From contig NZ_CP007509.1 of NCBI RefSeq assembly GCF_000661915.1, positions 4,353,501-4,417,500 on the forward strand: a stretch of DNA of 64,000 bases, in the 5' to 3' direction. The position numbers were made by a program, and so were the translations under genes. Shown piece by piece: positions 3,874-32,877 of this stretch. This DNA comes from Stutzerimonas decontaminans (GTDB lineage: Bacteria > Pseudomonadota > Gammaproteobacteria > Pseudomonadales > Pseudomonadaceae). How positions within the stretch are numbered: the stretch's first letter is position 1; each line of letters opens with the position of its first letter. The notes under the pieces were generated by a model. The model worked only from the letters and a program-made list of their open reading frames with translations. It did no database searches and was not told the origin of the DNA.

Positions 3874-5694
3874 TCAGGCGCCAGCCATCTGCCTAATCGT
3901 AAATGCCCTTCGTCCAACCACCGTAAACCCAGTGGACTCCGGTATTGACTGTTCAAAAACACGCCCGGTCTGCTCCAAGCGCAGATAGCGCGTTGCGCAC
4001 TTTTTATCCAAACAGTTGGCTTTGAACCCTAAAGGGCTTTGGAAAACCAGCGGAGCCCTGCCAGAGCACACCGGGCACTTTTCCAAAGCAAGAATCGCCT
4101 GGTTGTGACCTTCCAGGGCTGACGCTTGCGCAGTGGAGTTAGAGGCAACCAATGCCTCCTTGAGCGCCGTCACTGCCTCCCCGGCCAAGGCCTCAGTAAC
4201 AATCAGTTCATTTTGCTCTGAATTAACCTGAACCCCCGCAACCTGCTTTGCCTGTTCCAGCACTTTTTGCGGGATTTTTTGCAACGGCTGCGCATACGTA
4301 ATCAGAGCCATTCGGCAAAGCACCTGGTCAACCAGCAAGCCAAAGCGCTCCGTGCAATACATGTCCGTGGGAGACAGCGGTATCCACTGCTCCGGGCAAT
4401 AAGCCGCATCAATCTCCTGCCCCATTGCCGGCCAGGCGATAAACCGCTCCTTGCTCTGTGGGGTCACCTCAGGAGCAGGCGCATCACTCAACCAAGGCAC
4501 AATGGTAAGCAATACCTCCTCTGGCGCTGAAAGGCCAGGAGAACTGCAAAGCAATTGCCACTCCAGCCCACGTTGCCGAAGAAGTATGTGCCTTCCGGCC
4601 CAGACACCTTCGTCCTGGCCATTCAGATAAGGCAGCAGTGCCCTCCTCATAACCAGACCGGCGTAACGAGAATAGACAGAAGCAAGAGACTGGTTCTGCC
4701 TGAAGCGCTCTGCTGGCGTGGCACGCTTGGCCTGCGCCACCTTCGCCAACTGATCCCACAAGATAGCCAGATGCCGATAATGCTGGTCGTGGCCAAGTAT
4801 GTTGGTCATATGCAGCGCACCTGTCACTTGCGCCTGCCGACTGACCAACAAATACAGACCACTTTGCTGCAGACCCGTAATCGTCTGGTACAAGCCCTCA
4901 AGTTGATTAAGCGTTTTACCAAGCAACGTTGATGCGTTACTGGTTTCCTCTGCGCTGAATGTCATCCCCCACAAGCGACAAATTTCTTCACGCAGACGGT
5001 AATCGACATTCTCCGCCTCATAGAAGCGCAGCGCCTGATTCAGCGTCGCCTGCAAGCCACGCAACTCCGCCAGGCGTCCGTGCAAATAGCGTTCAATCTT
5101 ATCCAGCAAGCGCGCAAAGACACGATTCTCATAGATGCCATAGTCATCTTCGCTGAAGCGGGCCAGTACCTTCTTGGGGATCACGCCACTCAAGGTCTGC
5201 CGCTGCCAGCACTCCGAGTGCGAGGCCAGATGCACCAAAGCCCCTTTTGCCAAACGGCGTGCGCGCCCGATATCAGCCACCTCATCCTCATAATGCAGAT
5301 CAAGGCGCGGACGCTGCGAGATGTGATGCAGATGCCCTTGCTTCACCACATCCAGAAGCTGCTCCTCAAAGGGCTGCAGATGGCTCTTGGCATCAATGAT
5401 GGAAGCGGGCATCAGGGGGGACATCAAAGGCGCCTGCAGCGCCTCGGCATCAATAGTCGTAATGACCTTGCTCAGCAATTCCGTTGCCGCCGCCAGACTT
5501 TTTTGCGACGGCGTAAAAGTGCAAGCCTCATCACCCAACTGGCAGCGCTGGTCCCCATCACTCACCAGCACACCCGTAAATACCGGTGTATGTCCATTGA
5601 ACGCAGGCCCGTCACCCACAGACTGATAGCGACCGGGCGGAATGAGGGCGGGCAAGTGCCGGCACTGCTCACCAGTAAAACGATCAATCCACAT
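3874..5694 (-). CDS. McrC/DUF2357-like protein with C-terminal zinc ribbon
   Basis: This is the last gene of the TerY-P operon; its ATG overlaps the stop of the McrB-like gene (TGATG), so the two are translationally coupled. The 606-residue protein has an alpha-helical middle with YENRVFARLLDKIERYL (about residues 195-212), which resembles the conserved E/N-R segment of DUF2357 proteins that partner McrB-type ATPases. A C-terminal Cys motif CPVC with a later CLDKKC (about residues 542-570) looks like a zinc ribbon. I cannot see a clear PD-(D/E)xK nuclease motif, so it may be an adaptor rather than a nuclease. By analogy with McrBC I infer that it forms the effector or target-binding partner of the AAA+ ring. 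The function is not established. Confidence 0.6.
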   Translation of the reverse strand: MWIDRFTGEQCRHLPALIPPGRYQSVGDGPAFNGHTPVFTGVLVSDGDQRCQLGDEACTFTPSQKSLAAATELLSKVITTIDAEALQAPLMSPLMPASIIDAKSHLQPFEEQLLDVVKQGHLHHISQRPRLDLHYEDEVADIGRARRLAKGALVHLASHSECWQRQTLSGVIPKKVLARFSEDDYGIYENRVFARLLDKIERYLHGRLAELRGLQATLNQALRFYEAENVDYRLREEICRLWGMTFSAEETSNASTLLGKTLNQLEGLYQTITGLQQSGLYLLVSRQAQVTGALHMTNILGHDQHYRHLAILWDQLAKVAQAKRATPAERFRQNQSLASVYSRYAGLVMRRALLPYLNGQDEGVWAGRHILLRQRGLEWQLLCSSPGLSAPEEVLLTIVPWLSDAPAPEVTPQSKERFIAWPAMGQEIDAAYCPEQWIPLSPTDMYCTERFGLLVDQVLCRMALITYAQPLQKIPQKVLEQAKQVAGVQVNSEQNELIVTEALAGEAVTALKEALVASNSTAQASALEGHNQAILALEKCPVCSGRAPLVFQSPLGFKANCLDKKCATRYLRLEQTGRVFEQSIPESTGFTVVGRRAFTIRQMAGA

Positions 5695-8165
5695 CAGCTA
5701 CGCCCATCCAGGCGACGAATATCAGCCTCCAACAGCTCCATAGACTTGCGCGGATCACCCGCCAGATCAGCGCTGATCCAGAACTCCTCCAGAGCGCCCT
5801 TCAGATTACGCAGCGTCTCGGCAGAAACGTTGTAGCGGCCGGTCACTTTGCCAGGACGCATGATTCTCGTGGCCAGCAAGTGATCGAGCGCCTCCCCCGA
5901 AGAGGCCCCGCAGGCCAGCATGACAGGGATGAAATCCAGCGCCTGTTTTTCAAAGCGGTTCCCCCAGCCCAGCTCAAACTGGCTGCCCAACTGTTCGGTG
6001 AAGGCATCGCCGGTCAAGTCCTTCAGCAGCTTGACGACCTCCTCCTTGCGCTCAGCACGTGCCTTGCCAAATGCCTTGCGCAAGGAGCGATAAGAGTAGT
6101 TGGCCGGCTCAAACGACTTGATCGTGAAGCGCTTATCCTGCTTGGGCAGAGTCATTACATGAGCACGATCATAGGTCTTGTCCGCCAGCTCATTGGTGGT
6201 TTCATCATGGTTCGCGGTACCAATAAACCAGACATTGGCTGGCACCCTGATCTTGCGTCCCTCGGCCAGCATCGCAGGTGCATTGGGCAACGACGTTTCC
6301 GAGAGGCTGATCAAGCGCTCATCGGGGTTGTTCTTCTCCAGGGCAGAGAGGAACTCGGCAAAGTATTGCTCAGGGCGCGACAGGTTCATCTCGTCCAGCA
6401 GGATGATGTTGCAGGTGTCTTCCCAACGCGGGGTCTGCGCTTTGTATAGCGCCTGCAAGCAGTCCTTCTCGTAGAACCGTCGCTCAAAGGCGTTGTAATG
6501 ACCAAGAAGATCATCCCGATCACGCCAACCGGCCTGCACTGAGATGTCTGTGCAGAAGCCCCCCATTGCTTTGGCAAAAGCCTTGGCAAGACTTGTTTTA
6601 CCGGTACCACTGATACCCTGGAAGACATGCAGCTGGCTCATGGCCAAACCACCCAGCAGCACGCGGATATCCTCGATCGGATAGAACAGTTCTACATGCT
6701 TTTCAGCTTTAGCAATCCGATGCTGTAACTGGGTGGCAAATGTCTCTAGATCAGGCACTTCATCCAGTTCCATACGCGCCCGGTAATCACGCTCACTATC
6801 CATCAGCGACATGGCAGGGAATGGCGTCTGGGTCTTCTGCGCACTGGTCAGCTGCTCGATGCGGCTTTCCAGATCATCAATGTGAACGGTAAGGGTATTC
6901 TTGTGTTGCTCCAGAACACGTTTCTCACGCGCCACAGCCTCAAGCTCTGTAGCCGCGACACGCTTGTTGCTCAACTCACGACGCAGCTCATCCCGCTCAG
7001 GGCGTAGCTCAGCTACTTCTCTTTCAAGATCAGCCTTGCTGTCACGCAGGTAGTCATTATCGCGCTGCAATTGCGCCGTATCCGATTGCTCCAGGCTGCG
7101 CTTGAGTTCACGGTTTTCCTGACGCAGCGCTTCCAGTTGCTGCAGGATCTCAGCTCCGGATACTTCGCCCAGGGATTGCTTGAGCTCCTGAATATCGAGC
7201 AGCTGCTCCTTGAGTTCATTCGCCTTGCTCCAGGCCCGCTCACGCTGCTCTTCCAGCTTGGCAACAACCTGGTGATGATTCGCCCGCTCGGATGCCATTT
7301 CCTCATCCAGACGCTGCTGCAAGGCCTTTTCCTCTGCCTGGATATCCGCCCACTCACGATCCAGGCGGCTACGCGCACGATCTAACTCGACCACTTTCTG
7401 CTTGATGTCGTGCTCACGCTGATCAAGCAACCTGACACGTTCAGCCTCTGCCTCCGTGCAACTGAACTTGACCTCCGCCAGCCGCCTTGCTGCCTGGGAA
7501 ATTTCACCGTCGAGCTGGTGCTTGTCTTCGCGCAACGACTGAAGATCCGCTTCATGCTGACGCACCTGCTGACGTTGTTGCGCCTCCAGCTTACGTAAAG
7601 CCGCTTCGTTTTCCGCAACAAAGCCGGCTTGCGCATTGGCCTCTCGCATATTCAGGGAACGCTCGGCCTCCAAATTTTCGGCCATCTTCAGCGCCAATTC
7701 CTGCTGAGCCTCAAGCAGCTTGTCCCACTCAGCCTTGAGCTCAGCTTTCTCTGCATCCAGTCCGGAGCGGACGGCCACAAGCGCTTCCTGTTCGGCTACC
7801 TGCGCCAGTGCCGCCGCCTCGGCAGTTTCAGCTAGTTTGCTGGCAGCAGCCCACCTCTCGGCATATTCGTCATGCAAACGCTCCTTGAAGCGCACCAACT
7901 CCTTGCAGAGCGTGGCGAATTGCTCAATCCAGCGAACCAGATCACTGTCGCCCTCAAAACGCTCGCAGACGCCGCGCAACCACTCACGCTCGACAGAAAT
8001 ATCCAGTGTCATGTCAAAAGACTGATAGGCCTTGGAAGCGTTCTCGAAAGAAGCGCTCCATACATTCACTTGCTGCTCCACTGAAGCACGGGCCATACCG
8101 ACCGCAGACGGTGCCGCTGCAGGGATTTGCTGTGGACCAAACTTGTTCGAGCTTTTCTTGCCCAT
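5694..8165 (-). CDS. Coiled-coil McrB-like AAA+ NTPase
   Basis: The C-terminal third is an AAA+ motor of the McrB/MoxR type: Walker A GISGTGKTSLAK near residue 518, Walker B IILLDEMNLSRPEQYFAEFL near residue 590, and sensor region WFIGTANHDETTNELADKTYDRA. Residues 90-460 are a very long, charged heptad-rich coiled coil, much longer than in McrB itself, which would act as an arm or spacer. The ATG at 8165 is chosen over the one at 8174 because it overlaps the previous stop (TAATG) and places AAGGAA eight bases upstream. With the downstream DUF2357-like protein it forms a McrB/McrC-like pair. Related coiled-coil McrB proteins occur in predicted defence neighbourhoods. The specificity is unknown. 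Confidence 0.8.
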   Translation of the reverse strand: MGKKSSNKFGPQQIPAAAPSAVGMARASVEQQVNVWSASFENASKAYQSFDMTLDISVEREWLRGVCERFEGDSDLVRWIEQFATLCKELVRFKERLHDEYAERWAAASKLAETAEAAALAQVAEQEALVAVRSGLDAEKAELKAEWDKLLEAQQELALKMAENLEAERSLNMREANAQAGFVAENEAALRKLEAQQRQQVRQHEADLQSLREDKHQLDGEISQAARRLAEVKFSCTEAEAERVRLLDQREHDIKQKVVELDRARSRLDREWADIQAEEKALQQRLDEEMASERANHHQVVAKLEEQRERAWSKANELKEQLLDIQELKQSLGEVSGAEILQQLEALRQENRELKRSLEQSDTAQLQRDNDYLRDSKADLEREVAELRPERDELRRELSNKRVAATELEAVAREKRVLEQHKNTLTVHIDDLESRIEQLTSAQKTQTPFPAMSLMDSERDYRARMELDEVPDLETFATQLQHRIAKAEKHVELFYPIEDIRVLLGGLAMSQLHVFQGISGTGKTSLAKAFAKAMGGFCTDISVQAGWRDRDDLLGHYNAFERRFYEKDCLQALYKAQTPRWEDTCNIILLDEMNLSRPEQYFAEFLSALEKNNPDERLISLSETSLPNAPAMLAEGRKIRVPANVWFIGTANHDETTNELADKTYDRAHVMTLPKQDKRFTIKSFEPANYSYRSLRKAFGKARAERKEEVVKLLKDLTGDAFTEQLGSQFELGWGNRFEKQALDFIPVMLACGASSGEALDHLLATRIMRPGKVTGRYNVSAETLRNLKGALEEFWISADLAGDPRKSMELLEADIRRLDGRS

Positions 8166-9655
8166 TACATCCATTCCTTAAAAAATTCGGTGAAGCCCAG
8201 CGCGTACTGGATGTTATCCAGCGTTTCCTCATAGGTGAGGGGGGCGACTTCTCGTCCGGTAAAGCGGCTCTGCGCATGGCTGCTGCGGTTACGCAAATCC
8301 GCAAGCAGCAACAGCCTGTCAAGTTGCAGCTCGCGAGCTAACAGCGTCTTGAACGGGTGCCCGGAGTGGTTGAGCGTTCCCATTGCTGCAGCAAACAGCA
8401 AAGCCTTCAGGGAGCTGCCTGGCCGAGAGCAAGCCAAAATGATCTGATTGATGTTTTGCCCGGCTAGTTTGCTGATTACCCCGTCGGTAAACGCCGGCAA
8501 CTGCAAGGCGGATAGCACGCGCGCATTTAGCCCTCGGCCAAGGTTTTTCTGTTTGGGCAGATGGCCTGCTTCAACTGGATATTGGTGAATCAACCACTGC
8601 ATGAGGACCTCAAGCAGTTTCTGGCACTCCATCACTGCAGCATCCAGTTCCTGCTCACTCTGGTCGCCTTGTTCCAGCTTGTTCATACGCAGTAGCAGGG
8701 CTGCCAAATGCCGCTTGATATCCGGTTGCCGCGCCGCCCAGGGGTATTCCGTGAGCACCTGCATATCCGCCTGCTGGCGCATGGCCTGCAGCCACTGCTC
8801 AACCGTCTGATCATCCGCACGCGGAACAGAAACCAAAGGCTGCAAATGGTTGAGCAGGTACTTGCTACCCCCCTCAGTCTGCTCCCGCAAAGCATCCTGT
8901 AACCACCAGGCGTTGGCTCGCAGCGCAAACGGATCGTCGACTGCCCACAGCTCCAGCCCCTCGTCATCAGGCTTGGCCCAGAGCAGTACCCTTGCAGGCT
9001 TGGCGGTATCATCCAGCCGCTGCACCCCAGACAACTTAAGGAATTGCGGGAACTGGCCGCTATCGAGCTGCCGAGCTGCCCGGCAATCATCCCGATAGTC
9101 GCGATAAGCTATCGCCAGAGCCTCATGATCCAACGTCGGCAGTGATGACTTGCCCGCCGCCATCACAAACGGCCGGATTGACTTGCCGCTTTTCCGCTCC
9201 CCTTTGAATACGGGATAGCGTTGCAGCGGATCTTCGGGCTCGATCGAATCAAGCTGCTCAGCGAAGCGTGGCCAGAACTGACCACTGATAGCATCCTGGA
9301 ACAGATAACCAGCCTTCAGGTTGTCATCCTCAACAGACTCACCATCCAGCAGTTGCTCGCCTTTTTCAGTCAGCCCACGGGCACTATCAGTCAGCCAGCC
9401 GTTACTCACCCCTTGAGCCAGTATCAGCTTGATCAGATTGACATGCAGCCCGGTCAACTCAGCGATTGCCTCCGCTTGCGTCAACTGTGCCCGGATCAAC
9501 CCCAGCACAGCGCGCTGGAACAGATTCAACTGAGCCTCTTTTGCCTCGGGATAAAGCACGCGATGAACCAGCACCGGCCACAACAAGGGCCTAGCCTCGC
9601 CGCGAGGCTTTTCAGCAAACTGCAGATAAGTACCGGTTTCAGCGAATGCAGCCAT
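8165..9655 (-). CDS. Unknown protein with winged-helix-like region and HEPN-like motif
   Basis: I do not recognise a named family. The start is placed at the ATG at 9655 (MAAFAETGTYLQF). An upstream ATG-led extension would only read back through the preceding gene. The 496-residue product has a helix-turn-helix-like stretch (QAEAIAELTGLHVNLIKLIL then NGWLT, about residues 60-90). Near the C-terminus is LADLRNRSSHAQSRF, where Arg455-Asn and His460 make an R-N-x3-H motif like the catalytic R-x4-6-H of HEPN ribonucleases, set in a helical context. It overlaps the helicase stop by 17 bases and the McrB-like start by one base, so it is made together with both. It could be an RNase effector or a structural subunit; the motif alone does not decide. 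Confidence 0.55.
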   Translation of the reverse strand: MAAFAETGTYLQFAEKPRGEARPLLWPVLVHRVLYPEAKEAQLNLFQRAVLGLIRAQLTQAEAIAELTGLHVNLIKLILAQGVSNGWLTDSARGLTEKGEQLLDGESVEDDNLKAGYLFQDAISGQFWPRFAEQLDSIEPEDPLQRYPVFKGERKSGKSIRPFVMAAGKSSLPTLDHEALAIAYRDYRDDCRAARQLDSGQFPQFLKLSGVQRLDDTAKPARVLLWAKPDDEGLELWAVDDPFALRANAWWLQDALREQTEGGSKYLLNHLQPLVSVPRADDQTVEQWLQAMRQQADMQVLTEYPWAARQPDIKRHLAALLLRMNKLEQGDQSEQELDAAVMECQKLLEVLMQWLIHQYPVEAGHLPKQKNLGRGLNARVLSALQLPAFTDGVISKLAGQNINQIILACSRPGSSLKALLFAAAMGTLNHSGHPFKTLLARELQLDRLLLLADLRNRSSHAQSRFTGREVAPLTYEETLDNIQYALGFTEFFKEWM

Positions 9656-12600
9656 GCTCACCCCCACACAGCTGATAAAAAGCAGCCAGAGCTGGTACAG
9701 CCTCTTGTGCATCCGGGTTACTGGCCAAAGCAGCATCCCCGACACAAATCAGCATCTGCCTTTGCCGGCTCATGGCCACGTTCATGCGGTTTGGCAAACG
9801 CAGGAAACCAAACTGACGGTTCAGTTGCAGCTCACGCTCACCCCCCTCGCTGGCAGCAGCTCGCACCGAGCGATTGGGCTGGAAACTGCGCACGCAAGAC
9901 AGCAGCACCACATCGAACTCCTTGCCCTGGAAGGCGTCCACCGAGCCAACCCGCAAGCGTTCCTCTGCAACCACGCTTCCATCTGCCTGCACCTTGCGGG
10001 TCAACTTGAACTGCTCATGCGGCTCGTAGCCCCCCTCGCGCTTTACCATCAAGGGAGTACCGTCGATTTTCTGCTGAGCGAGCTTCTCCATGATCAGATC
10101 GCGCTGTGCCGCGTAGAAAGTAATGATGCCAACAGACAACGCCTCACCGCCGGCCTGCATCAGCTTTACCACTTCGTCAGCAATGCGCTGCGCCTCAATC
10201 TCTCGAACCCGGCTAGTTCCCCGGCGCTGATCACGCCCCTGCACCGCCGGCACATCAATCCACTGACAAACATGGCCGCGGTAGGACTCCGCCAGCGGCC
10301 CCAGCCTGGAAAGCAGCTCCTGGCTGAATACAAACGCATCTGCCGGCCTGCCGGAATGCAGAACCCCCAGGTTTTCACATTCGTAGAAGTGCTTACTGAC
10401 AAAGTTGCCCAAGACCGGATGCATGCGGAACTGGGTATCAAGCATCACCACACGGCGAATCGAATCCTGCTTTTCCAAATCCTGTAGCTTGACCCGCATA
10501 CGCTCGAAAAGACTGGATCGGAAAGCCGCCAGTTGCAGTTCGGTCAGTTCATGCTCCTCCTGCAACTGCCCCTCGATATCCGGCTCAAGCATGTGCGGGA
10601 GCTGGCGGTCATCGCCCACCAGAACAATCCGCCGCTTGGCCATGGACATCGGAATAAACAGATCCAATGGATTGGCCCGTGCTGCCTCGTCGATGACAAC
10701 CGTATCGAACTCGATATCCGAGTTGGAGCTAGTGGATACCTCTTTCAACATTTCCATCTGCTTGCCCGCAGCCTGCTGGCAGGTTGCACCGACCACCATC
10801 GAATACTCATTGACCACAGCCCGCGCAGCGGAACGATCGGACTCCAGACTATCGACCAGTTGCTCCAAGACCCATGCAACCCCCTGCTTGCGCTTGGCCA
10901 TGCGGTCTTCCAGATAGCGATCCACCTCATCAAGCAGCGCTAGGCCATCAGGGTCTACCTGGCGTTTCAGCGCAGCCGGCCGGTAATCCGGCAAGTGCTG
11001 ATCAAGCAACAGATCCTTCCAGATCTTCAGAGCCTGAAGGGTCGCCGGCTCAACGTGCGAGCTGTCGGCAAGTTCTTCCAGCAGGCGCAGCAGCTCCGGG
11101 GCCACACCTTTTTCATGGCGCTTGAGCCAGCTCAGCAGATCCCAGGCACGCTCGCCGCCATCATCGGTAAAGGCAGCAACCTCGACACGCAGAGCACGGA
11201 TACGCCTGAGCAGCTGAGAGGGAGGCAGACCTCCCGCAGCTGTAGCCGGCGCTTGACCGGCAAGCGTATCGATATACTCCTCGAACTGACTTTCAAGCCG
11301 GGGCGGCAATGCCAGGCCGCTTTGCTCCAGTTCACGCAAGTCATGCAAAAGGCGCTGGAACTCATCCGCCTGCTGTGCAGGGCCGGTACTCGCTACCCGG
11401 GCAAGGGCCAACCTCGCGGAAATGGCCCGCAACTGCTCAAGCTCAGGGAAGCGGCTGTATTCCTGCGCAATCTTGCGGTGCAAATGAGCCGCCTGGCGTT
11501 CCAGCCAAGGCTCAATCAAAGCCGCCTGATCACTCTCGCCGTGCTTGCCGCCCACCCGCGCGCCAGGTAAGCCGAATACATCGCTACGCTCCAGTGCATT
11601 GTCGACGGCATCATGCTGAAAACTGCTGACCAGTACCTGCGCCGCAATATTCTGCTTCTCCGCTCGCTCACCCAGACAACGCTGCAATGCTGCAATAACC
11701 TGGGTTTTACCGGTACCAGGAGGGCCGATGATGATTGCCAGATCAGGGGTATTGAGCGCGCAATCCAGCGCCAGCGCCTGCTTCTCGGTCGGCTTGCCAC
11801 CCTTGAAAGACTCCAGCACGTATGGGGTCAGCCCGCTGATCGGGCGTCGTCGCGCAGCAGGAACCGCAACCCCTTCCAGCAGCCATTTCAATTGCGGCAG
11901 CCGCTTGCCCGAGTCAATCGACTGCTTGGCTGCCAAGCGACGCTTACCCATCGAACGTTGGCCGGCAAGAGACAGATACAACCAGCCCTCCCCCGCTTTC
12001 GGTCGGATGTTGGTCTTACCCGCCGCCTGTTTGAAAATCACGCAATCTGGCTCGAAGCGAATAGTCCCCCGCGGAGCATTGGCAGTCCTTTGAGCCTTCT
12101 CGGATGAAAGCTCTTCCAGCCAGTCCGGGCGCTGATCGCCCAGATCAAACTGATCATTGCTGCTCAGCTCCAGATCGCGCCAGCGCTCGCGGAACGCCTG
12201 ATACTGCTCCTGCGACTTGGGAATCAGACGCCAGGCATTGCCACGCCCCTCCTGAAAGCCGTGGCACTCGGCGTAAGCCAGAGAACCCAAACTTTCTGCC
12301 TGCTCTAAAGCTCTTTGCCACTCTTTATCGTTGTAAAGATTCCAGAGTTCGAGATAGCTGGCGTTGTCACGCAGCGCCGCACTCAGCAGAGCCTGCTGAC
12401 TGGCGCTGCCGAGCGCAGCCGCAACAGAGGCATCCTTAAATTCAAATTGGCCAAGCAGGATGGAGAATGCACCATCACGATGGGTATGACGGTTAACACG
12501 CTTGAGCAGAAAACTGCCATCCTGGCGCTGCTCGACATCGGCACGCCAGCCATTACCCAGCAACTGAAAACCGCCCTTGCTAGCGGTGTTGCTGAAACGA

Positions 12601-13034: not shown

Positions 13035-13040
13035 TTGCTA

Positions 13041-14477: not shown

Positions 14478-14482
14478 CTGTA

Positions 14483-15882: not shown

Positions 15883-15899
15883 AGCGCATTCCGTGCCAA
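15883..15899 (-). promoter_or_regulatory. Candidate sigma-54 promoter of the TerY-P operon
   Basis: On the minus strand the bases read TTGGCACGGAATGCGCT. The -24 GG (15897-15896) and -12 GC (15885-15884) are ten bases apart, exactly the sigma-54 spacing, and the TGGCACG block is consensus. The -12 side (TGCGC rather than TTGC) is weaker. The predicted start of transcription is near 15872, giving a leader of about 30 bases before the GTG at 15843. The sequence upstream is AT-rich, as expected for an enhancer region. Confidence 0.7.

Positions 15900-18244: not shown

Positions 18245-18248
<4 letters not shown>
16353..18248 (-). CDS. TPR-repeat protein with C-terminal OB-fold region
   Basis: The 631-residue protein begins with helical repeats of TPR type (for example AAAIYRKVWMNG and LALGRHDEALAFGIAVTKAK, about residues 130-350). 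The last 200 residues are beta-rich, with spaced segments such as AAGDAVRIKGEFDEKQRFNL and CEIEDGQQVSGTAVQVYNKK that look like S1 or cold-shock type OB folds, which bind nucleic acid. The start is a GTG at 18248 overlapping the stop of the helicase gene (GTGA), so it is coupled to that helicase and probably works with it as a nucleic-acid-binding scaffold. Similar TPR-OB proteins paired with helicases are known in predicted conflict systems. The exact role is unknown. Confidence 0.65.
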
Positions 18249-21082
<2,834 letters not shown>

Positions 21083-21145: not shown

Positions 21146-21523
21146 CTACCTTGCAGTCTTTTCGCGCAGTTCCGCCCGGAGCTTGTCCCTTTTCACCAGA
21201 ACCTCATCTGCGGCTTCTCCCGTCAGGCGGCCAGCCAGCTCCTCATACACCTGCAAAAGCTCCTTACGCTTGGCCATGACCTGACGCGGTAAAACCGCAA
21301 AAATCTCCGGATGGGCAATCTGAGCCTCAAGAACTTTCACCTGCGTTTCCAGAGCAGGAGTCCTTCCTGCCTCAAGGCGTTCCTTGAGTGAACGGTTAAA
21401 TTCAGCCGATGAGCGATTAACGTCATCCAGAAAGTCGTTGAGCACTGTAAGCGCTCGCGAAACGGCCTCCGCAGCCGAACCCAGCACAGCGACAGTGCGT
21501 TTCAAGCCCGTCCAGATTGACAT
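21146..21523 (-). CDS. Small coiled-coil protein of unknown function
   Basis: The 125-residue product starts at an ATG at 21523 (MSIWTGLKRTVAVLG). A short hydrophobic N-terminal segment is followed by two amphipathic stretches (VNRSSAEFNRSLKERLEAG and VMAKRKELLQVYEELAGRL) likely to form coiled coils. There is no recognisable catalytic motif. It lies between the OLD-type nuclease gene and the helicase gene on the same strand, with gaps of about 100 and 60 bases, so it probably belongs to the same transcript. It could be a small regulatory or membrane-associated subunit; no function can be assigned. Confidence 0.5.
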   Translation of the reverse strand: MSIWTGLKRTVAVLGSAAEAVSRALTVLNDFLDDVNRSSAEFNRSLKERLEAGRTPALETQVKVLEAQIAHPEIFAVLPRQVMAKRKELLQVYEELAGRLTGEAADEVLVKRDKLRAELREKTAR

Positions 21524-21626
21524 ATAACTGCCTCAAATCCTGAATAAATAAATCTGTCCCGTTTATCCCCTGCACTGGGAGCAGGCAGACCAAACCGCTT
21601 CAGCAGAGCCATACACCACGCGGGAT

Positions 21627-23453: not shown

Positions 23454-23467
23454 GGGGATTTCCTTAT

Positions 23468-24598
23468 CTAAAGCTGTCCTGAAAACGCCAGCTGGGATAG
23501 CGATTCGAAAAGTGGCGTATTCAACCCAGATTCGTGGCGGAGGCTAGACTCCGATACTTTCTGCGCAATAGCGGAAAATTTCTCCTGAAGGCCTATCGGC
23601 GGGACAGGGATTTCAATTTCGTCAAATAGTGATTTTTTTAGAATCGGAAGTGTAGTCTGAATTGCTTTAGAGCTAACCAACCCAGGAGACAGCTTAAATA
23701 CAAAAAACCCATAAATATCTGAAATTTCAGAACCCCACTCCTGCGCATTTATCTGCTGATTGAATGCTAAAGAGCGGCCAGCAATCCCAACCTTCCCAAC
23801 AGTACCTATACAACAGACCAACAAGCTGCCTTTGCGGCAAATTTTTGAATACTCAGCCCCCTCTCGGGTCACCTCCCGAACAGAAGAGTCAACTTTCCCA
23901 CACAAATCACCAGGAGTTACAAAAGGCAAACCTTCGCCCCACATACCAACTTTCTCACCTGGGGGCGTCCTGCCAGTTGCTGACTTACCCAGTAATTTAA
24001 GGCTTTTCTTGGGCCATCCCTTCGGATTGCTTACCGGGTCGCCGAACATGTCCAGAAACACGGCGCGGAGGAAGTCGTCGACGAGCTGGATGGCTTGCTG
24101 GTGTTTGAGGCGAATGGCATCGGCCTTGTCTAGGATAGCGGCGATGCGCTTTTGTTCGGGCAGAGGTGGGAGAGGGATTTGCATCGCCTCGAAATTGCCC
24201 TTATTAATAATCGCTACGGTAGTTGATGGAGCCATAGCCTCCATTTTTGGCTTTAAAAGCTGCAAAGCGTAGAAGCCATACTTTGCGTCAACTCTATTCT
24301 CGTCAAAGATCACTGAGTTGATCTGTTGATTTGTGGCAACAGGCGTACCCGCAATCGCCATCTTCCCAAGCGAGCCTATACAGCAAACCATTACAGCATT
24401 ATTTGGTACCAGCTTAATTGCCGAGGCGCCTTTAGCGGACAAGGTTCTTGGCGCACTCGTTACATAAGTCTCCAGTCCAAGCTCAGCAGGAGTGACAAAC
24501 GGAATATCCCCGCCAAAGTTCTGATCATCCACCGTTGATGGTGTCTTCCCTGTAACAACCTTTGCCACTTCTTTTATGGCAACAAGAGGCCAGCTCAC
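23468..24598 (-). CDS. hsdS: Type I restriction-modification specificity subunit HsdS
   Basis: The 376-residue protein has two target recognition domains, each starting with a P-L/S-G-K-(T/S)-P pattern (VVTGKTPSTV near residue 16; SATGRTPPGEK near 210) and each ending in a conserved helix that spaces the two half-sites (LPEQKRIAAILDKADAIRLK near 145-165; GLQEKFSAIAQKVSES near the end). It sets which bipartite DNA sequence the HsdM/HsdR complex recognises. The start is GTG at 24598 overlapping the hsdM stop (GTGA). Base composition is visibly richer in A+T in both recognition domains than in the neighbours, as expected for exchanged modules. Confidence 0.93.
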   Translation of the reverse strand: MSWPLVAIKEVAKVVTGKTPSTVDDQNFGGDIPFVTPAELGLETYVTSAPRTLSAKGASAIKLVPNNAVMVCCIGSLGKMAIAGTPVATNQQINSVIFDENRVDAKYGFYALQLLKPKMEAMAPSTTVAIINKGNFEAMQIPLPPLPEQKRIAAILDKADAIRLKHQQAIQLVDDFLRAVFLDMFGDPVSNPKGWPKKSLKLLGKSATGRTPPGEKVGMWGEGLPFVTPGDLCGKVDSSVREVTREGAEYSKICRKGSLLVCCIGTVGKVGIAGRSLAFNQQINAQEWGSEISDIYGFFVFKLSPGLVSSKAIQTTLPILKKSLFDEIEIPVPPIGLQEKFSAIAQKVSESSLRHESGLNTPLFESLSQLAFSGQL

Positions 24599-26178
24599 AG
24601 CATCCCCTCCAGCTCATCCAGATCCGCCAGAATTTCCTGCTCCAGCCCTTTTAGCCGTTGCAGAATCACCTTGGGATCCTCGTACTGTTCCTGCCGGTAC
24701 TCCACTTCCTTGTAGCGATTGATGGAGAGGTCGTACTTGTTGGCAGCAATATCCTCTGCGGGCACGACAAAGGCCTTTTTGCGCTTGTCGCCGAACAGGG
24801 TATTGATGGTGCTGGCGCTGAGGTTGCCCTCAATCATCTGCCGGTACTTATGCCACTGGGCTATAGCATCGGGCAGGTCGTTGCTGCCCTCTCCTTTCAG
24901 CTCGGTGCGCTTGTCGTCCAGCGAGTAGCCGTCGGCCTGCAGGTCATAGAACCACACACGTTCGGTGGTACCGCCCTTGGTAAAAATCAGGATGGCAGTG
25001 CTGACGCCGGCGTAGGGTTTGAACACACCGCTGGGCAGGCTGACGATGCCTTCGAGCTGGTTGTTGTCGAGCAGCTCCTGGCGCAGTTGCTGGTGGGCTT
25101 TGGACGAGCCGAACAGCACGCCGTCCGGCACGATCACGGCGGCGCGGCCGCCGAGCTTGAGCGAGCGGAGGATATGGGCAACGAACAGCAGCTCGGTCTT
25201 CTTGGTTTTCACCAGACCGAGCACGTCGGGGTTGGTGTTGGTTTCGTCCAGGCTGCCTTTGAACGGAGGGTTGGCCAGCACCACGTCGAAGAAGTCTTGT
25301 TCCTGACGCGGGTAGTGCTCCTTGATGGATTTGCTCAGGGAGTCCTGGTAGCGGATGTTCCCGCCGTTCACGCCGTGCAGCATCATGTTCATGCTGGAGA
25401 CGCGCAGCATGGTGGTGTCGAAGTCGAAGCCCCAGAACATCTGGCTGTTGATGTGCTGGCGGTAGGGTTCGAGCAGGTCGCCGGAGTAATGCAGGTTGCC
25501 GTCTTCGTCGGTGAAGGTGCCTTCCGGGCTTGAATGCACGCGGTTGAGGTATTCCATGGTGCGGGCGAGAAAGCCCGCCGTGCCGCAGGCCGGGTCGCAG
25601 ATTACCTCGGTCGGCTGCGGGGCGATCAGTTCGATCATCGCGTCGATGATGTGGCGCGGGGTGCGGAACTGGCCGTTGATGCCGGCGGTGGTGAGCTTGC
25701 TCAGCAGGTATTCGTAGATATCGCCCTTGACGTCGCTCTGGGTCAGCGGCAGGTCATTGACCATCTCCACAGCGGAGGTGAGTACGGACTCGTTCTTGAT
25801 CTCTAGATCGGCGTCCTGCATGTACTCGCTGATATGACCGAGGCCCTCGCGCTCACCGCCCTCGCCTTCAGCACCGCCGAGTTGGGCGAAGAAGGGGTAG
25901 ACCTTCTGCTTGAGATGGCTGTGCAGCTCCTTGCCACTCATGTTGCGGAAGTTCTTCCAGCGCAGCAGCTGGCCTTCCGGGGTATTGGGAAAGAGGCGGT
26001 CGAAGGGCTTGCCGGTGCGATTGGCTTTGCGCTCGGCCACGTCTTCCTGCATGTCGAGCATGCGGGCGAACATCAGGTAGCTGATCTGTTCGATCACAGT
26101 CAGCGGGTTGGTGATGCCGCCGGTCCAGAATTTTTCCCAGAGCTTGTCGATATCGTTGCGGATTTTGCCGGTGAGCAT
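24595..26178 (-). CDS. hsdM: Type I restriction-modification DNA methyltransferase HsdM
   Basis: This 527-residue N6-adenine methyltransferase has the N-terminal HsdM helical domain (residues 1-150), the SAM-binding motif CDPACGTAGFLARTMEYL (about residue 198) and the catalytic motif VVLANPPFKGS (about 305). It methylates the target sequence and, with HsdS, forms the modification core. The ATG directly abuts the hsdR stop with no gap, and the stop overlaps the hsdS start. Its length and motif order are normal for the family. Confidence 0.95.
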   Translation of the reverse strand: MLTGKIRNDIDKLWEKFWTGGITNPLTVIEQISYLMFARMLDMQEDVAERKANRTGKPFDRLFPNTPEGQLLRWKNFRNMSGKELHSHLKQKVYPFFAQLGGAEGEGGEREGLGHISEYMQDADLEIKNESVLTSAVEMVNDLPLTQSDVKGDIYEYLLSKLTTAGINGQFRTPRHIIDAMIELIAPQPTEVICDPACGTAGFLARTMEYLNRVHSSPEGTFTDEDGNLHYSGDLLEPYRQHINSQMFWGFDFDTTMLRVSSMNMMLHGVNGGNIRYQDSLSKSIKEHYPRQEQDFFDVVLANPPFKGSLDETNTNPDVLGLVKTKKTELLFVAHILRSLKLGGRAAVIVPDGVLFGSSKAHQQLRQELLDNNQLEGIVSLPSGVFKPYAGVSTAILIFTKGGTTERVWFYDLQADGYSLDDKRTELKGEGSNDLPDAIAQWHKYRQMIEGNLSASTINTLFGDKRKKAFVVPAEDIAANKYDLSINRYKEVEYRQEQYEDPKVILQRLKGLEQEILADLDELEGML

Positions 26179-29100
26179 TCAGTGGTCTCGATCTATAGGT
26201 TGTGCGGCCATCAGGCGGGGGGGGCCGGGCTGGTCGGGGTTCTTCAAAAAGGGTTTGAGCACGGCCACCAGTTCGGTGACATCGGCGGGGGCGAACACGC
26301 CGTCGATGCCCTCGTGGGAGATGCTGGAAAACGGCGCGTCGTAGAGTGTTTCAATCACGATGCTGCCGTGCTGGGCGATGTAGTTTTTCAGCAGGTTCAT
26401 AAAGCGCACCTGCTGGGCGGTCAGGCTGGGATGGGCATGGAGGAACTGTTTGAAGTGTTCCTCAATGGCGTGTGCATCCAGGCCAATGATCTCGCGTACG
26501 GTGAGGTGCAGTTGATCGGCTGTGCGACCGTAGAACTCGTTGAGCACCTCCAGGCTGACGCCGGGGTGGCTGGTGAGGATGGTCGAGGTCAGGGTTTTCA
26601 GCTCGCTCTCGGCAATGGGTTCGCCCTTGTGGATTTTTTGCAGGGTCGGGTTGGCGGCGAGCATGCCGGCAAGGATGTCCTTGAGGCGGCGGCGGTAGAT
26701 CATGGCCTCGCTGGCGCCAGTGATGTACACCGCGCGCTCGTCGCCCAGCAGGTTGCCATCCTTGGTTTTGGTGGTTCCTATGCCATCACCTGGCCCGGTG
26801 CCGGTCTGACGATATTTCATGATGCCGCGCAGTTCCTGGCGGGCGTTTTCCAGCTTGTCGATGCTCGGCTGCAGCCAGAAGTCGGCGCTGCGTACTTCGG
26901 CGATCAGGGCATCCTTCTGGCGGACGGCCTGGATATTCACGGCGAGCTTGTCCAACTCGGCCAGCAGGGCAATTTTGCCGTCCTCGAAGCAGGTGGCCTG
27001 CTCGACCAGGCAGCACTGAATACCGGCGATCAGCTTATCCAGCGCAGTGGCGTGTTTGTCGCGCAGCACGCGGGCCGACATCAGCGGGGCAATGGTGTTT
27101 GTCAGCAGGTGTTGGGTTTTGCCATCGAACTGCTGCAGCTGCTGGGTTTGCTGCAACTGGTGCACGGCGCGCAGTTCACGCTTTACCGCCACGCTGGTGT
27201 CGGGCAGGTCGTTGATGTCGGCACGCAGCAGGGCAATGGCGGCGTCAAAGGCAGCGGCATGGTTGTGGCGTAGGGCGGCTTGGGCCAGCGCCAGGCGAGC
27301 TTCGAAGGTGGTTTGCAGCAGGGATTTGCTGCCGGTGTCTTCCGGCTCCTGATACTCCTGCTCGAAGAAATCGAAGTTGCCGTAGTGGTCGAAGATCAAA
27401 AACTCGGTTTTGTCTTTACCGGGGCCAAACAGGTTGGGGCGCAGGCGCGTACCGCGGCCGATCATCTGCCAGAACTTAACCCAGGATTTGACCGGCTTGG
27501 CGAACACCAGGTTGACCACTTCCGGTACGTCGATGCCGGTGTCGAGCATGTCCACCGAGATGGCGATGCGGAAGTCGTTATCCGGCTTTTTGAATTCCTT
27601 GATCAGGGTGTCCACGTGCGGGATGGCGTTGTGGATGACCTTGCAGACCTTGGTGCCGTACTGCGGGTAGAGCTTGCAGAAGAGCTTTTCCAGGTGCTCG
27701 GCGTGGTCCTGACGCTGGGCGAAGACGATGGTTTTGCCGACCAGTGAGCCGGTCTCATCCTTGATGCCGTTGTTGATCAGGTTTTCCAGGATGATGCGGT
27801 CGGTGTCTTCGCTGAAGATTTTGCGACCGATGTCCTTGCCGGCGATGGTGGTGCGCTTGGCCTCCTCCTCGCCGAGGTCCTCTTCGAGCTGGCGCTTCTG
27901 CTCGTCGCTGAGGTCGTTGTAGTGGATGCCGTCGCGTAGGAAGTCCGTGGTGAGGTCCTTCACGCGGAATGGCACCAGATAAGGCGGCTCATTATTGATG
28001 GCAGCATCGAGGCCGAACTCGAAAGTCGGGTCTGTGGTTTCGCAGTCGAAAATATCGAAGGTGTTGCGGCTGATGAACTTCACCGGCGTGGCAGTGAGGC
28101 CGACCTGCAGCGCGTCGAAGTAGTCGAACAGGTCGCGGTACTTGTTATAGATGCTGCGGTGGCTTTCGTCGGCGATGATCAGGTCGAAGAAGCCCACATC
28201 AAGCTGGGCGAAGCGGTTCATCATGCCCGGGTAGGTGGCGATGTAGATGCGCGCGGTCTGGTCGACCTTGCCGGTTTCGCCGATCACACAGCGCGGCTCG
28301 CTGGGCAGGTTTTGCTTGAAGGCGTCATCGGCCTGCACGCGCAGCTCTTTGCGGTCGCAGAGGAACAGCACGCGCTTGGCCCAGCCGGTGCGCAGCAGCA
28401 ACTCAGCCAGGGCGATGGCCACGCGGGTTTTGCCGGTGCCGGTGGCCTGGATGATCAGGGCCTTGCGGCGCTGCTGCTGGAAGTGGGCGGCGACGGTTTT
28501 GATCGCCTCAATCTGGTAGGGGCGGTCGGCAATGCTCAGCTCTGGGTTGTGTTTCTCCAGCGTGGGGACACGGTACTGGCGCTGATAGGCGAGGTATTCC
28601 AGGCTGTCCTTGCTGTAGATGCCGTACACCGGGCGGTAGGTGTTGTACTGCTTATCGTCCCAGATAAAGGTTTCGTAGCCGTTGCTGTAGAAAATCACCG
28701 GGCGCTGCATGCCCATGCGCTCGAAGCCGTCGGCGTACATGCGCGCCTGTTCGCGCCCGGCTTGCAGGCTGACATTGCCGGATTTCTTGGCCTCGATCAC
28801 GGCCAGGGGCTGACCGTTGTCGCCCCATAGCACGTAGTCCGCACGGCCCTTGCCGGAGACGTTGCCGGGGAAATCGACCTCCACTTCCTGGCCGACCTGC
28901 GCGGGGTTGCTGACATCCCAGCCGGCTTGCAGGAGCATGGCGTCGATCAGCAATGCGCGGGTTTTGGCTTCGTTCCACTGCAGGCTGTCGGCCACCTTCT
29001 GGCTCTGCTGCTGACGCTTTTGCTGATCAGGCTTGGCAGGCGGGTCGACCTTGTCGAGGTGGCGGGTGCGCTCCTGCTCCAGCTTGTCCATCACGCTCTG

Positions 29101-29595
29101 CAGCGCTTCCTGCTGCTGGTTGAGTTCCTTCTCATAGCTGGAGACGGTTTTCTGCAGGCGGACGAGGGTCGCGGTCGGATCCTGCACCTCGGCAAAGGGC
29201 GGAATATCGGCCTGTGCGGTACCGTAGTACTTGATGGCCATGTACATGGCCAGCTGATGGGCGGTCTTCAGTGCCAGTTGTGCATTGCGCAGGTCACCTT
29301 CAGCGCCGTGTGCGGTGTCGTTACCCTGGATGCGCAGGAAATTGATCTGGTGCACCAGCGGCTTGCTGACGCAATCGACAAAAACCGAGTTTTTCACCAG
29401 GTCGTAGAAGGTTGACTGCGGCATGCGCGGCAGCAGCTCTTCCTTGTAGATGGCTTTGGTCAGCTCTTCGGCAAAGCTGCGCAGGCGAGTGAGTGCGCTG
29501 CCCGGATCGATATGCAGGACGGCTTCAGCGAGGCCTGCGAGGTTCGCCAGCAATTCGTTGCCGGTGCGGAGGAACTCGAAGTTGACTGATTTCAT
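26179..29595 (-). CDS. hsdR: Type I restriction endonuclease subunit HsdR with DUF4145 domain
   Basis: The translocating nuclease subunit. A DUF4145 domain (residues 1-105, ending FLRIQGNDTAHGAEGDL) precedes the PD-(D/E)xK nuclease (VDFPGNVSGKGRADYVLW and AVIEAKKSG, about residues 240-275), an SF2 motor (Walker A QATGTGKTRVAIAL, ADESHRS, VGLTATP, GRGTRLRP) and a helical C-terminal region. I choose the ATG at 29595 rather than 29613. The predicted sigma-54 transcription start falls at about 29614, and the related DUF4145 domain at 21082 begins at the equivalent MVSDNF position. It heads an R-M-S gene order, unlike the common M-S-R order. Confidence 0.92.
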   Translation of the reverse strand: MKSVNFEFLRTGNELLANLAGLAEAVLHIDPGSALTRLRSFAEELTKAIYKEELLPRMPQSTFYDLVKNSVFVDCVSKPLVHQINFLRIQGNDTAHGAEGDLRNAQLALKTAHQLAMYMAIKYYGTAQADIPPFAEVQDPTATLVRLQKTVSSYEKELNQQQEALQSVMDKLEQERTRHLDKVDPPAKPDQQKRQQQSQKVADSLQWNEAKTRALLIDAMLLQAGWDVSNPAQVGQEVEVDFPGNVSGKGRADYVLWGDNGQPLAVIEAKKSGNVSLQAGREQARMYADGFERMGMQRPVIFYSNGYETFIWDDKQYNTYRPVYGIYSKDSLEYLAYQRQYRVPTLEKHNPELSIADRPYQIEAIKTVAAHFQQQRRKALIIQATGTGKTRVAIALAELLLRTGWAKRVLFLCDRKELRVQADDAFKQNLPSEPRCVIGETGKVDQTARIYIATYPGMMNRFAQLDVGFFDLIIADESHRSIYNKYRDLFDYFDALQVGLTATPVKFISRNTFDIFDCETTDPTFEFGLDAAINNEPPYLVPFRVKDLTTDFLRDGIHYNDLSDEQKRQLEEDLGEEEAKRTTIAGKDIGRKIFSEDTDRIILENLINNGIKDETGSLVGKTIVFAQRQDHAEHLEKLFCKLYPQYGTKVCKVIHNAIPHVDTLIKEFKKPDNDFRIAISVDMLDTGIDVPEVVNLVFAKPVKSWVKFWQMIGRGTRLRPNLFGPGKDKTEFLIFDHYGNFDFFEQEYQEPEDTGSKSLLQTTFEARLALAQAALRHNHAAAFDAAIALLRADINDLPDTSVAVKRELRAVHQLQQTQQLQQFDGKTQHLLTNTIAPLMSARVLRDKHATALDKLIAGIQCCLVEQATCFEDGKIALLAELDKLAVNIQAVRQKDALIAEVRSADFWLQPSIDKLENARQELRGIMKYRQTGTGPGDGIGTTKTKDGNLLGDERAVYITGASEAMIYRRRLKDILAGMLAANPTLQKIHKGEPIAESELKTLTSTILTSHPGVSLEVLNEFYGRTADQLHLTVREIIGLDAHAIEEHFKQFLHAHPSLTAQQVRFMNLLKNYIAQHGSIVIETLYDAPFSSISHEGIDGVFAPADVTELVAVLKPFLKNPDQPGPPRLMAAQPIDRDH

Positions 29596-29624
29596 GTAGG
29601 CGATTCTGTCCATGAGGGTCCTAG

Positions 29625-29641
29625 AGCGAGGACCGTGCCAG
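29625..29641 (-). promoter_or_regulatory. Candidate sigma-54 promoter of the hsdRMS operon
   Basis: The minus strand reads CTGGCACGGTCCTCGCT. The -24 GG (29639-29638) and -12 GC (29627-29626) are exactly ten bases apart. The match to TGGCACG-N4-TTGC is broken only at one T of the -12 block. It lies directly after the stop codon of the sigma-54 activator gene (29644) and predicts a start of transcription near 29614, just before hsdR. The first in-frame ATG (29613) would then be leaderless, which favours the ATG at 29595. Confidence 0.72.
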
Positions 29642-29643
29642 TT

Positions 29644-31125
29644 TTATTCGATGCCGTATTTGTCCATCCAGTTGCTCAGCGTTTGCTGGCTTTTGAGGCC
29701 TAGCAGGCTGGCCGCCCGGGTCTTGTTATTGCCGGTAAGCGTCAGCGCCTTGCGCAGATAATGCCCGGCAACCTCGGCAATTACCCCTTGTAAATCAATG
29801 CCTTGAGATACATCTTGAGACAAGGAGCTCTTCTGCTCACGAGGCGATTGGAACATCGCCTGTTCAATATCCGCAGCGCCAATCACATCACCCGGGCACC
29901 AGAGGGCGGCGCGCAACAAGGTGGACTGCAACTCCCGCACATTGCCTCTCCACGGGTGATTAAGGATAAGATTTTTTGCTTCTGCGGAAATTTTCTTACC
30001 CTTTAGCGATTCGTCCCCTGCGACAATCCCACTCAACAGGGAGTCGGCCAACAACAGCAGGTCACCCTCGCGCTCACGCAGTGGCGGTAGATGCAGGACA
30101 CCGATGGCAACGCGATAGAAAAGATCCTCACGGAAGCCACCCTCTGCTACGGCTTGCATCAGATTGCGGTGAGTCGCGGTAATCAGACGCACATCCACTC
30201 TGACTTCCTGACTGCCACCTACCGGAGTCACTACACCCTCCTGCAGCACCCGCAACAGACGCACCTGGGCATCAGGAGCCAGCTCACCAAACTCGTCCAG
30301 GAACAGGGTTCCACCATCAGCCTGCTGGAAGACACCAGCTCGATTCTCAACAGCGCCTGTGAACGCGCCTTTGCGGTGACCAAACAATGTGGAGTCAATC
30401 AGCTCCGGCGGAATAGCGCCGCAGTTGACCGCTACAAATGGCCCTAATGATCGAGGACTGGCATTGTGAATCGCTCTGGCGAATAGCTCCTTGCCAGTGC
30501 CCGTTTCGCCATAGATCAGGACAGGCACCTGCTTTTGAGCAAGAACCTGCGCCTGCGCCTTGAGCCTGAACATGCGCTCACTCTGTGTAACGATGCTGTC
30601 AAAGGCCGCGTTGACTGGGGCCTGGCCGTCAGCAAGCTGAAGCAGCTTGTCACCCGTAATGGTGTTGGCTGCCGGCACATATTCCGCAGCAATCTCGAAT
30701 GGCACATCGACCTTCTGCACCCCCTGCTCTAACGAGGATTGGTAGAAGGTGACTGGATAGCGGGTCTTACCGAGCAAAATCCAAACCGCCTGCATGGCTG
30801 GCGTGCCGGGACTGAGCAGGATGGATAGCTGTGTGCCAGAGACATGCAGCCGCTTTAGGTGTGCATTGGCAGCCTGGTAGATATCTCCGAAATGCACCGG
30901 AGACCTAAGCGACTCATAGCTAAGATTGACCTGCGAATTCACCTGCTCACGCAGCCAGGCCAGGTAGGGCTCAACCTGCGCAGCCGGGTAAGAAGAGAGC
31001 AGTTCGACCTGATCGAAAGACTCCGCTTTCAGCGTCGAAAGCACAGGCCCAGCATCACTTCCTGATGGTGCTTTGAGGTCGTTTCCACCTACCCAGCAGA
31101 GCAGCACATTCTGCTTTTTAGCCAC
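29644..31125 (-). CDS. CARF-domain sigma-54-dependent transcriptional activator (RtcR-like)
   Basis: The 493-residue protein has three parts. Residues 1-180 form a Rossmann-like sensor with VLLCWVGGNDLKA at the start and QLSILLSPGTPAMQAVWI near residue 100, the glycine/threonine motif typical of CARF domains that bind cyclic oligonucleotides or RNA ends. Residues 185-420 are a sigma-54 AAA+ domain with YGETGTGKELFARA, the sigma-54-contacting GAFTGA loop, LFLDEFGEL and PWRGNVREL. The C-terminus is a Fis-type helix-turn-helix (NNKTRAASLLGLKSQQTLSN). A GTG at 31125 with AGGA upstream is preferred over a TTG at 31158. RtcR is the named relative with this architecture, but no rtcBA RNA-repair genes are here. 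The likely targets are the two sigma-54 promoters in this island. Confidence 0.85.
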   Translation of the reverse strand: MAKKQNVLLCWVGGNDLKAPSGSDAGPVLSTLKAESFDQVELLSSYPAAQVEPYLAWLREQVNSQVNLSYESLRSPVHFGDIYQAANAHLKRLHVSGTQLSILLSPGTPAMQAVWILLGKTRYPVTFYQSSLEQGVQKVDVPFEIAAEYVPAANTITGDKLLQLADGQAPVNAAFDSIVTQSERMFRLKAQAQVLAQKQVPVLIYGETGTGKELFARAIHNASPRSLGPFVAVNCGAIPPELIDSTLFGHRKGAFTGAVENRAGVFQQADGGTLFLDEFGELAPDAQVRLLRVLQEGVVTPVGGSQEVRVDVRLITATHRNLMQAVAEGGFREDLFYRVAIGVLHLPPLREREGDLLLLADSLLSGIVAGDESLKGKKISAEAKNLILNHPWRGNVRELQSTLLRAALWCPGDVIGAADIEQAMFQSPREQKSSLSQDVSQGIDLQGVIAEVAGHYLRKALTLTGNNKTRAASLLGLKSQQTLSNWMDKYGIE

Positions 31126-32855: not shown

Positions 32856-32877
32856 CTGCCCGCTCCTGACCAATTCC

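Follow-up and report, generated by a model that had tools for sequence, protein, structure and literature searches.

One RtcR-like activator and two predicted sigma-54 promoters in a probable Type II CoCoNuT defence superlocus of Stutzerimonas decontaminans

Makarova 2014 (PMC4012209) linked RtcR-like CARF-AAA-HTH proteins to restriction-modification (RM) systems and predicted that they act through sigma-54, and Bell 2024 (PMC11090510) described Type II CoCoNuTs that are preceded by RtcR and a type I RM system, with the prediction that the entire cluster is activated through a CARF ligand. Escherichia coli RtcR, by the account in PMC9650030, is kept off by its own CARF domain and requires both RtcA and RtcB; oligoadenylates failed to activate it, and tRNA fragments, although they bound the CARF domain, did not suffice. 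Here we consider a stretch of 64,000 nt from Stutzerimonas decontaminans (the window), in which the minus strand at 3874-31158 carries an island of related make-up. We propose that the island is probably a mobile Type II CoCoNuT defence superlocus with one RtcR-like activator, and that this activator would work with sigma-54 at two promoters, making the RM and CoCoNuT genes two units of a regulon and not one transcript.

How does the island compare with the described systems? It shares its regulator architecture and RM linkage with the RtcR-like proteins of Makarova 2014, in whose passages on them we found neither promoter elements nor CoCoNuTs. More is shared with the superoperon of Bell 2024: an RtcR-like gene at the 5' end, type I RM next, then TerY-P, CnuH, CnuE and CnuB with CnuC last, all in one direction, and a predicted CARF-triggered activation. 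The island differs from that superoperon in its conserved -24/-12 element at both operons, in the OLD and PDC-M16/TOTE genes that lie in between, and in having no ShdA between hsdR and hsdM. In the main text of Bell 2024 the word 'promoter' is absent, apart from one remark on internal promoters. An initial annotation of the window, made from the sequence alone, took the joint regulation of these genes to be undescribed; that view does not stand, as both papers had already predicted RtcR-type control. The concept is known, and what is new is the promoter elements, the presence of a further one at the CoCoNuT, which points to a regulon in place of one long operon, and the spacing to the hsdR start. 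Among the open-licence papers listed by our searches, supplements aside, we found no published sigma-54 promoter for hsdR or TerY in such islands, no second CoCoNuT element and no leaderless hsdR.

Sigma-54 promoters have GG and GC 10 nt apart in a TGGCAC-N5-TTGC-like frame. Our promoter pattern, the 13 defined positions of TTGGCAYGNNNNTYGCT, follows this textbook -24/-12 element. Exactly two sites in the window match at least 12 of the 13 positions, at 29641-29625(-) and 15899-15883(-); both lie in the gaps before hsdR and terY, and both fit the frame with its 10-nt distance. The initial annotation had placed near-consensus sigma-54 promoters at these two points, and they prove to be the only ones of that quality in the 64 kb. 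The features concerned are as follows.

29644..31158, minus strand: RtcR_PspF2-type CARF-AAA+-HTH sigma-54 activator; the listed open reading frame (ORF) begins at 31158, the likely start is GTG 31125
29625..29641, minus strand: -24/-12 element CTGGCACGGTCCTCGCT before hsdR; C of the -12 GC at 29626, A of the ATG at 29613 (13 nt)
29617..29634, minus strand: inverted repeat GGTCCT-CGCTCT-AGGACC, spanning the -12 element and the Shine-Dalgarno (SD)-like AGGA of hsdR
26179..29613, minus strand: hsdR, type I restriction subunit with DUF4145-like N-terminus (PDLC03047, E 0; ResIII, EcoEI_R_C)
15883..15899, minus strand: -24/-12 element TTGGCACGGAATGCGCT, 39 nt upstream of the terY start
15178..15843, minus strand: TerY-like vWA protein (PF00092)

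Are two such sites more than chance would provide? The number expected in the window is 0.37, or 0.61 by shuffling, with two or more in 10 of 100 shuffles; a laxer promoter pattern gave 49 matches against 48.4 expected. Across the 4.83 Mb genome there are 8 occurrences of TTGGCAYGNNNNNYGCT and 4 of its backward control; the terY site is one of the 8 (the hsdR site begins CTGG and falls outside this count). Raw motif counts, being near chance, were rejected as evidence. The two sites stand above chance because of their position, in both operon gaps, and their conservation, not their number.

Conservation was followed first behind the regulator. Regulator loci came from a contig scan (32 loci), from 390 genomes of the order (24) and 369 of the class (5), both searched at E <=1e-120 with the host itself included in each, and from plasmids (4 records). 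Near-full-length regulators were kept (match from residue <=60 to >=480, which drops, for example, L018-L032 and also AAA-only matches) and identical tails merged, giving 49 distinct loci, the window included; the count keeps L061 and the G593 regulator (L097) despite an internal stop in each. In 41 of the 49, the first 120 nt after the regulator stop contain a site matching 11 or more of the 13 positions; hand arithmetic gives an expectation of about 0.005 per stretch. The next gene is hsdR at 37 loci, vWA at 4, HsdM at 1 and another gene at 7; among these seven, L064 starts another HsdR and L116 holds an hsdR-like stretch not listed as a gene. The operons found behind regulator and element together are hsdR, vWA (L037, L052, L095), HsdM (L062) and the ATPase of a MoxR-vWA-beta-propeller ternary system, bpMoxR (L058). 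With such varied genes behind the same element, the element evidently travels with the regulator, whatever operon comes next. That the two matches in the window are chance, or serve another function, is very improbable: the raw count is near expectation, but the elements are kept behind regulators of 42-95% identity while the flanks diverge, and their spacing to hsdR is fixed.

Two side observations belong here. In L058 the bpMoxR gene (1-1422, minus strand) follows directly after the regulator and its -24/-12 element, and this conflict system may be under the same control. A regulator stop followed by TTGGCAYG-N4-TYGCT offers a portable signature for finding CARF/sigma-54 defence operons, the MoxR ternary-system gene of L058 being one example. 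The HsdR-like ORF of L064 (3-1475, minus strand) also matches Peptidase_S24 in its N-terminal part.

Does the second element behave in the same way? Here we counted vWA genes of at least 100 bits, which drops L039-L043. Fifteen records have a linked full-length regulator (G000, G005, G008, G010, G013, G015, G195, G215, G242, G255, G338, G366, G593, G706 and plasmid L118); the regulator of G338 lies beyond the CoCoNuT, on its downstream side, that of G366 is divergent, and for L118 the 260 nt after the regulator stop were scanned in place of the 350 nt before vWA. Ten of these 15 have a site of 11/13 or better in the 350 nt before the vWA start, against none of the six vWA copies without a linked regulator (G042, G171, G403, G461, G009 and the second vWA of G000), where the best is 10/13 (G461). 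The one-sided hypergeometric probability is about 0.0085, calculated by hand and ignoring relatedness. Six islands with one regulator have strong elements at both operons (G000, G005, G008, G010, G013, G195), so that the check proposed in the initial annotation, for regulator plus -24/-12 elements in related islands, came out in its favour before both operons.

These counts bear on the arrangement of Bell 2024, a single superoperon in which the regulator fires only the adjacent promoter and the CoCoNuT is expressed late, by read-through or from sigma-54-independent internal promoters, with gene order setting the timing. All the genes do run in the same direction and mostly abut. Yet terY has its own conserved -24/-12 element, and that element goes with linkage to the regulator; moreover, some 500 nt separate PDC-M16B from terY, with only a GmrSD-like 3' remnant found in the gap. 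We therefore hold a single superoperon to be unlikely. The remnant (about 16043-16200, 52 residues) shares 73% identity with the last part of a GmrSD-like restriction gene that in L033 is located upstream of terY; probably another defence gene was lost just before the terY promoter.

Might terY have a sigma-54 promoter that answers to another activator, leaving the CARF regulator to serve the adjacent promoter only? Sigma-54 activators are numerous in the host (in G000, 15 matches reach E <=1e-90, the island regulator included), and no shared enhancer was found. Against this, the regulator is next upstream of terY in Marinomonas, in G242, in G706 (518-nt gap) and in Rhodoferax, and no terY element was seen in any of the six vWA copies that lack a linked regulator. 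In Marinomonas G015 there are two regulators, of 60-61% identity to that of the window: one stands directly before hsdR, the other directly before vWA-PP2C-kinase, and a separate -24/-12 element follows each. This pair is the most direct genetic hint that the regulator type serves both operons. On a Rhodoferax plasmid the regulator stands directly before a complete CoCoNuT. A separate activator for terY seems to us quite unlikely.

Several facts weigh against control of both operons by one activator. The 13-position pattern was drawn up after some sites had already been seen. The eight regulator loci that miss the site are L053 (site at 205 nt), L057 (10/13), L067 (9/13), L068, L118, L119 (10/13), and L065 and L066, in which TTGGCACG is present with GG at -12. 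At terY the misses despite a linked regulator are G255 (10/13), G338, G593, L118 and G706, the last with a site 86 nt after the regulator stop but about 390 nt upstream of vWA, outside the counted 350. Five of the records with a linked regulator (G000, G005, G008, G010, G013) are close relatives; all six unlinked vWA proteins are only 46-58% identical to that of the window, and the regulator of G009 is on a separate 4.2-kb contig, which makes its unlinked status uncertain. Finally, no enhancer appeared: upstream of eight terY promoters, 10-73% of shuffles did as well as the best dyad. For four hsdR upstream stretches dyads were listed but not compared with shuffles; one of these, L013, has a perfect 8-nt dyad that falls within the regulator gene. 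Inspection by eye revealed no motif common to the upstream stretches, a limited look made without a motif-discovery program. As no enhancer was found, direct binding of the regulator at terY is unproven.

With these points weighed, joint sigma-54 control of both operons is well supported by sequence, and control of both by the one RtcR-like activator is probable. By analogy with RtcR, the CARF domain would restrain the AAA+ motor until a nucleotide or RNA-end ligand from infection arrives. The freed activator would then remodel sigma-54 RNA polymerase at two promoters, of which the one 3' of the regulator gene would start hsdR-hsdM-hsdS-OLD, and perhaps the M16 genes by read-through, and the one 14 kb downstream would start terY-PP2C-kinase-cnuHEBC. 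DNA restriction and a predicted RNA-cutting arm would be two units of one regulon. The gene content, the predicted CARF fold and both elements with their conservation rest on sequence; we infer the use of the elements by sigma-54, the activator's service to both operons, a ligand and a role in defence. The single CARF-switched inducible system of the initial annotation is supported in part, by the predicted CARF fold, the elements at both operons and the host's rpoN (one RpoN DNA-binding-domain match); its joint regulation had been predicted before. For the published and apparently untested CARF control of RM-CoCoNuT superloci this gives predictions at the level of bases: two starts, with a single regulator and a single sigma factor. 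The arms that cut DNA and, by prediction, RNA could fire together, not strictly in order, which bears on the idea of an 'echeloned' defence.

The regulator was rightly described at the outset as a CARF-domain sigma-54 activator. It matches PDLC01995 over residues 16-504, with CARF, sigma-54 AAA+ and HTH parts as in RtcR_PspF2, and the CARF fold was found by a fold search; alignment of the CARF part against sequences of solved structures gave four chains at E <=1, none of them CARF proteins. It is not RtcR proper, scoring 321 bits against an NCBIfam RtcR cut-off of 650. RtcB has no match in the host genome, the same search having found it in 9 of 14 control genomes, and the regulator must therefore work without that partner, unlike E. 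coli RtcR. The E. coli RtcR-rtcBA system, as presented in PMC9650030, shares with the island a CARF-repressed sigma-54 activator and differs in its adjacent rtcBA and its need for RtcB. Csm6, Can2 and Csa3 are known CARF proteins; the island's CARF domain is instead on a sigma-54 activator, not on a nuclease. What might the signal be? A cyclic oligonucleotide, an RNA end and a phage nucleotide are all candidates.

The hsdR element raises a further question, as its expected transcription start falls on the hsdR ATG, RpoN-dependent starts being placed about 12 nt after the GC; the promoter had been said to lie 'exactly in front' of the gene, which is right in a sense not foreseen. Among 39 hsdR-type loci (the 37 called hsdR plus L064 and L116), 32 have the A of the ATG at a near-constant distance from the C of the -12 GC: 13 nt downstream in 27 loci and 14 nt in 5. 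The other seven are L054, L055, L064, L065, L066, L114 and L119. An earlier, out-of-place ATG in L006, L009, L113 and L117 was not taken as the start. The base before the ATG is a pyrimidine in 32/32 fixed-spacing loci, whose regulators span 46-100% identity and whose bases between -12 and ATG vary. In L054 and L055, where the distance is longer, a purine-rich SD stands directly before the same ATG. The second hsdR ATG (codon 7) is less likely to be the true start, as L061 lacks it and L054 and L055 have their SD before the first. Because of the 13-14 nt spacing in 32 of 39 loci, we infer that sigma-54 transcripts begin at, or one base before, the hsdR AUG, giving a leaderless mRNA. The terY gene, unlike hsdR, is preceded by a leader that contains AAGGAA. 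A leaderless hsdR message, if real, could allow the induction of restriction in cells whose normal initiation of translation is impaired.

Bases that flank the -12 element pair into a stem in many of the 27 nonredundant sequences compared. The mean folding energy over 14 distinct left arms is -5.76; redealing the right arms gives -3.14 (standard deviation 0.54), and none of 3000 deals reaches the real mean, relatedness being ignored. In the divergent loci L015, L051, L061, L067, L112 and L113 the stem is no better than shuffles, and seven control stretches at terY fold at 0 to -6.6 kcal/mol, and modest stems are thus not unusual at promoters of this kind. Of the 19 sequences whose stem reaches -6 kcal/mol or better, 17 contain an SD-like core, against 1 of the 8 whose stem is weaker. 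In read-through mRNA the stem might mask the SD. Taken with the AUG spacing, the preceding pyrimidine and the covariation, this suggests a two-state switch, in which sigma-54 mRNA would be leaderless and read-through mRNA would bury the hsdR SD in a hairpin, allowing little HsdR from stray transcripts; we offer this tentatively and consider it rather doubtful. It is quite possible, if short of probable, that the inverted repeat is instead a DNA operator to which a repressor binds, given that it overlaps the -12 element and that the sigma-54 transcript would start downstream of it. However, the arms change between loci with complementarity kept, which is unlike a fixed operator, and the SD-like core tracks the stem.

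The sensor resembles one that answers broken RNA, and if the leaderless message exists it could be translated by ribosomes without an anti-SD tail. MazF-trimmed ribosomes favour leaderless mRNAs, and RtcB religates them, according to the review PMC12186496; parts of the MazF story are disputed (PMC6561028). A link between trimmed ribosomes and hsdR is speculation.

The idea of constitutive modification with inducible restriction, by way of the hairpin and read-through HsdM and HsdS, is weakened by the junction between the two genes. In the window, as in L008, L010, L011, L012 and L014, the TGA that ends hsdR is followed at once by the ATG of hsdM, with no clear SD, and HsdM therefore looks translationally coupled to HsdR. 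With hsdR-M-S one unit behind an inducible promoter (29613-26178), the upkeep of methylation on uninduced host DNA, or else a self-toxicity of induction, calls for an explanation.

The genes behind the second element are those of a Type II CoCoNuT.

14483..15178, minus strand: PP2C phosphatase (PF13672)
13041..14486, minus strand: Ser/Thr kinase with two C-terminal CxxC motifs (zinc ribbon)
9639..13034, minus strand: CnuH, UPF1-like SF1 helicase (AAA_11/AAA_12; TIGR00376)
8165..9745, minus strand: CnuE, wHTH plus HEPN-type RxxxxH (RNRSSH); PF24409 and motif, 36% identity to the L118 copy
5694..8174, minus strand: CnuB, McrB-like GTPase with NxD motif (NHD at 655-657)
3874..5694, minus strand: CnuC, McrC-like, 36% identity to an L118 protein matching DUF2357

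The GTPase has NxD in place of NxxD (TANHDETTNE), a Type II feature kept in the L118 copy. CnuH is a UPF1-like SF1 helicase with an apparent insertion after Walker A: it matches TIGR00376 (IGHMBP2 family) at E 2.2e-37, below the curated cut-off, and AAA_11 covers 417-813 for 257 model positions, consistent with the insertion. CnuE has a wHTH (PF24409, E 1.1e-7) and one putative HEPN, its RNRSSH found by motif search only. CnuC is without a direct Pfam match of its own and is tentatively assigned through the L118 CnuC, itself DUF2357 at E 1.4e-5. The TerY-P triad of vWA, PP2C and kinase is present, the kinase CxxC motifs being at 316 and 337. The SF1 helicase and 'McrB-like pair', which the initial annotation names beside the TerY-P genes, are no extras: both belong to the CoCoNuT core.

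The remaining features complete the island.

24595..26178, minus strand: hsdM, type I methyltransferase (family matches)
23468..24598, minus strand: hsdS, specificity subunit (family matches)
21627..23453, minus strand: OLD/AriA-like ATPase with TOPRIM (PF13175, PF20469; AriA and GajA models)
21146..21523, minus strand: 125-aa ORF, no family
18245..21082, minus strand: PDC-M16A, DUF4145 plus RecD-like helicase plus TBP-TOTE
16353..18248, minus strand: PDC-M16B, partner with two S1/CSD-TOTE domains
31482..32873, minus strand: tyrosine integrase at the island edge (PF00589 and others)
3073..3852, plus strand: tyrosine integrase-like ORF at the other edge (PF00589, E 1.2e-5, below the Pfam cut-off)

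From the regulator the order is CARF-AAA-HTH, HsdR, HsdM, HsdS, OLD/AriA-like ATPase-TOPRIM, 125-aa ORF, PDC-M16A, PDC-M16B, vWA, PP2C, kinase, SF1 helicase, wHTH protein, McrB-like AAA and McrC-like, all on the minus strand and where the initial annotation had put those it named; the type I RM set of HsdR, HsdM and HsdS is complete. The island has a G+C content of about 0.55-0.60; most 2-kb steps between 34 and 64 kb have about 0.64-0.68. It is flanked by the tyrosine integrase on one side and by the integrase-like ORF and IS21 genes on the other; no att repeats of at least 14 nt were found between the flanks (1701-4100 versus 31101-35000).

HsdR (26179-29613) and the PDC-M16A helicase (18245-21082) have a common N-terminal DUF4145-like module, 27-37% identical, and each matches the other's PADLOC model; the module is perhaps a common docking or sensing part. 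HsdS (23468-24598) is 29-58% identical to the compared relatives, in most of which HsdM is above 90%, a contrast that on these sequences is one of fast specificity swapping. An RmuC-domain protein between hsdR and hsdM at L001:14948-17086 fits Bell's description of ShdA, and hsdR-hsdM gaps of similar size occur in several other relatives, not in the window. Just outside the island, at 37676-44407, is a 2243-aa repetitive Ig-like/DUF4347 surface protein, adjoined by HlyD-like, M50/HlyD and OEP genes.

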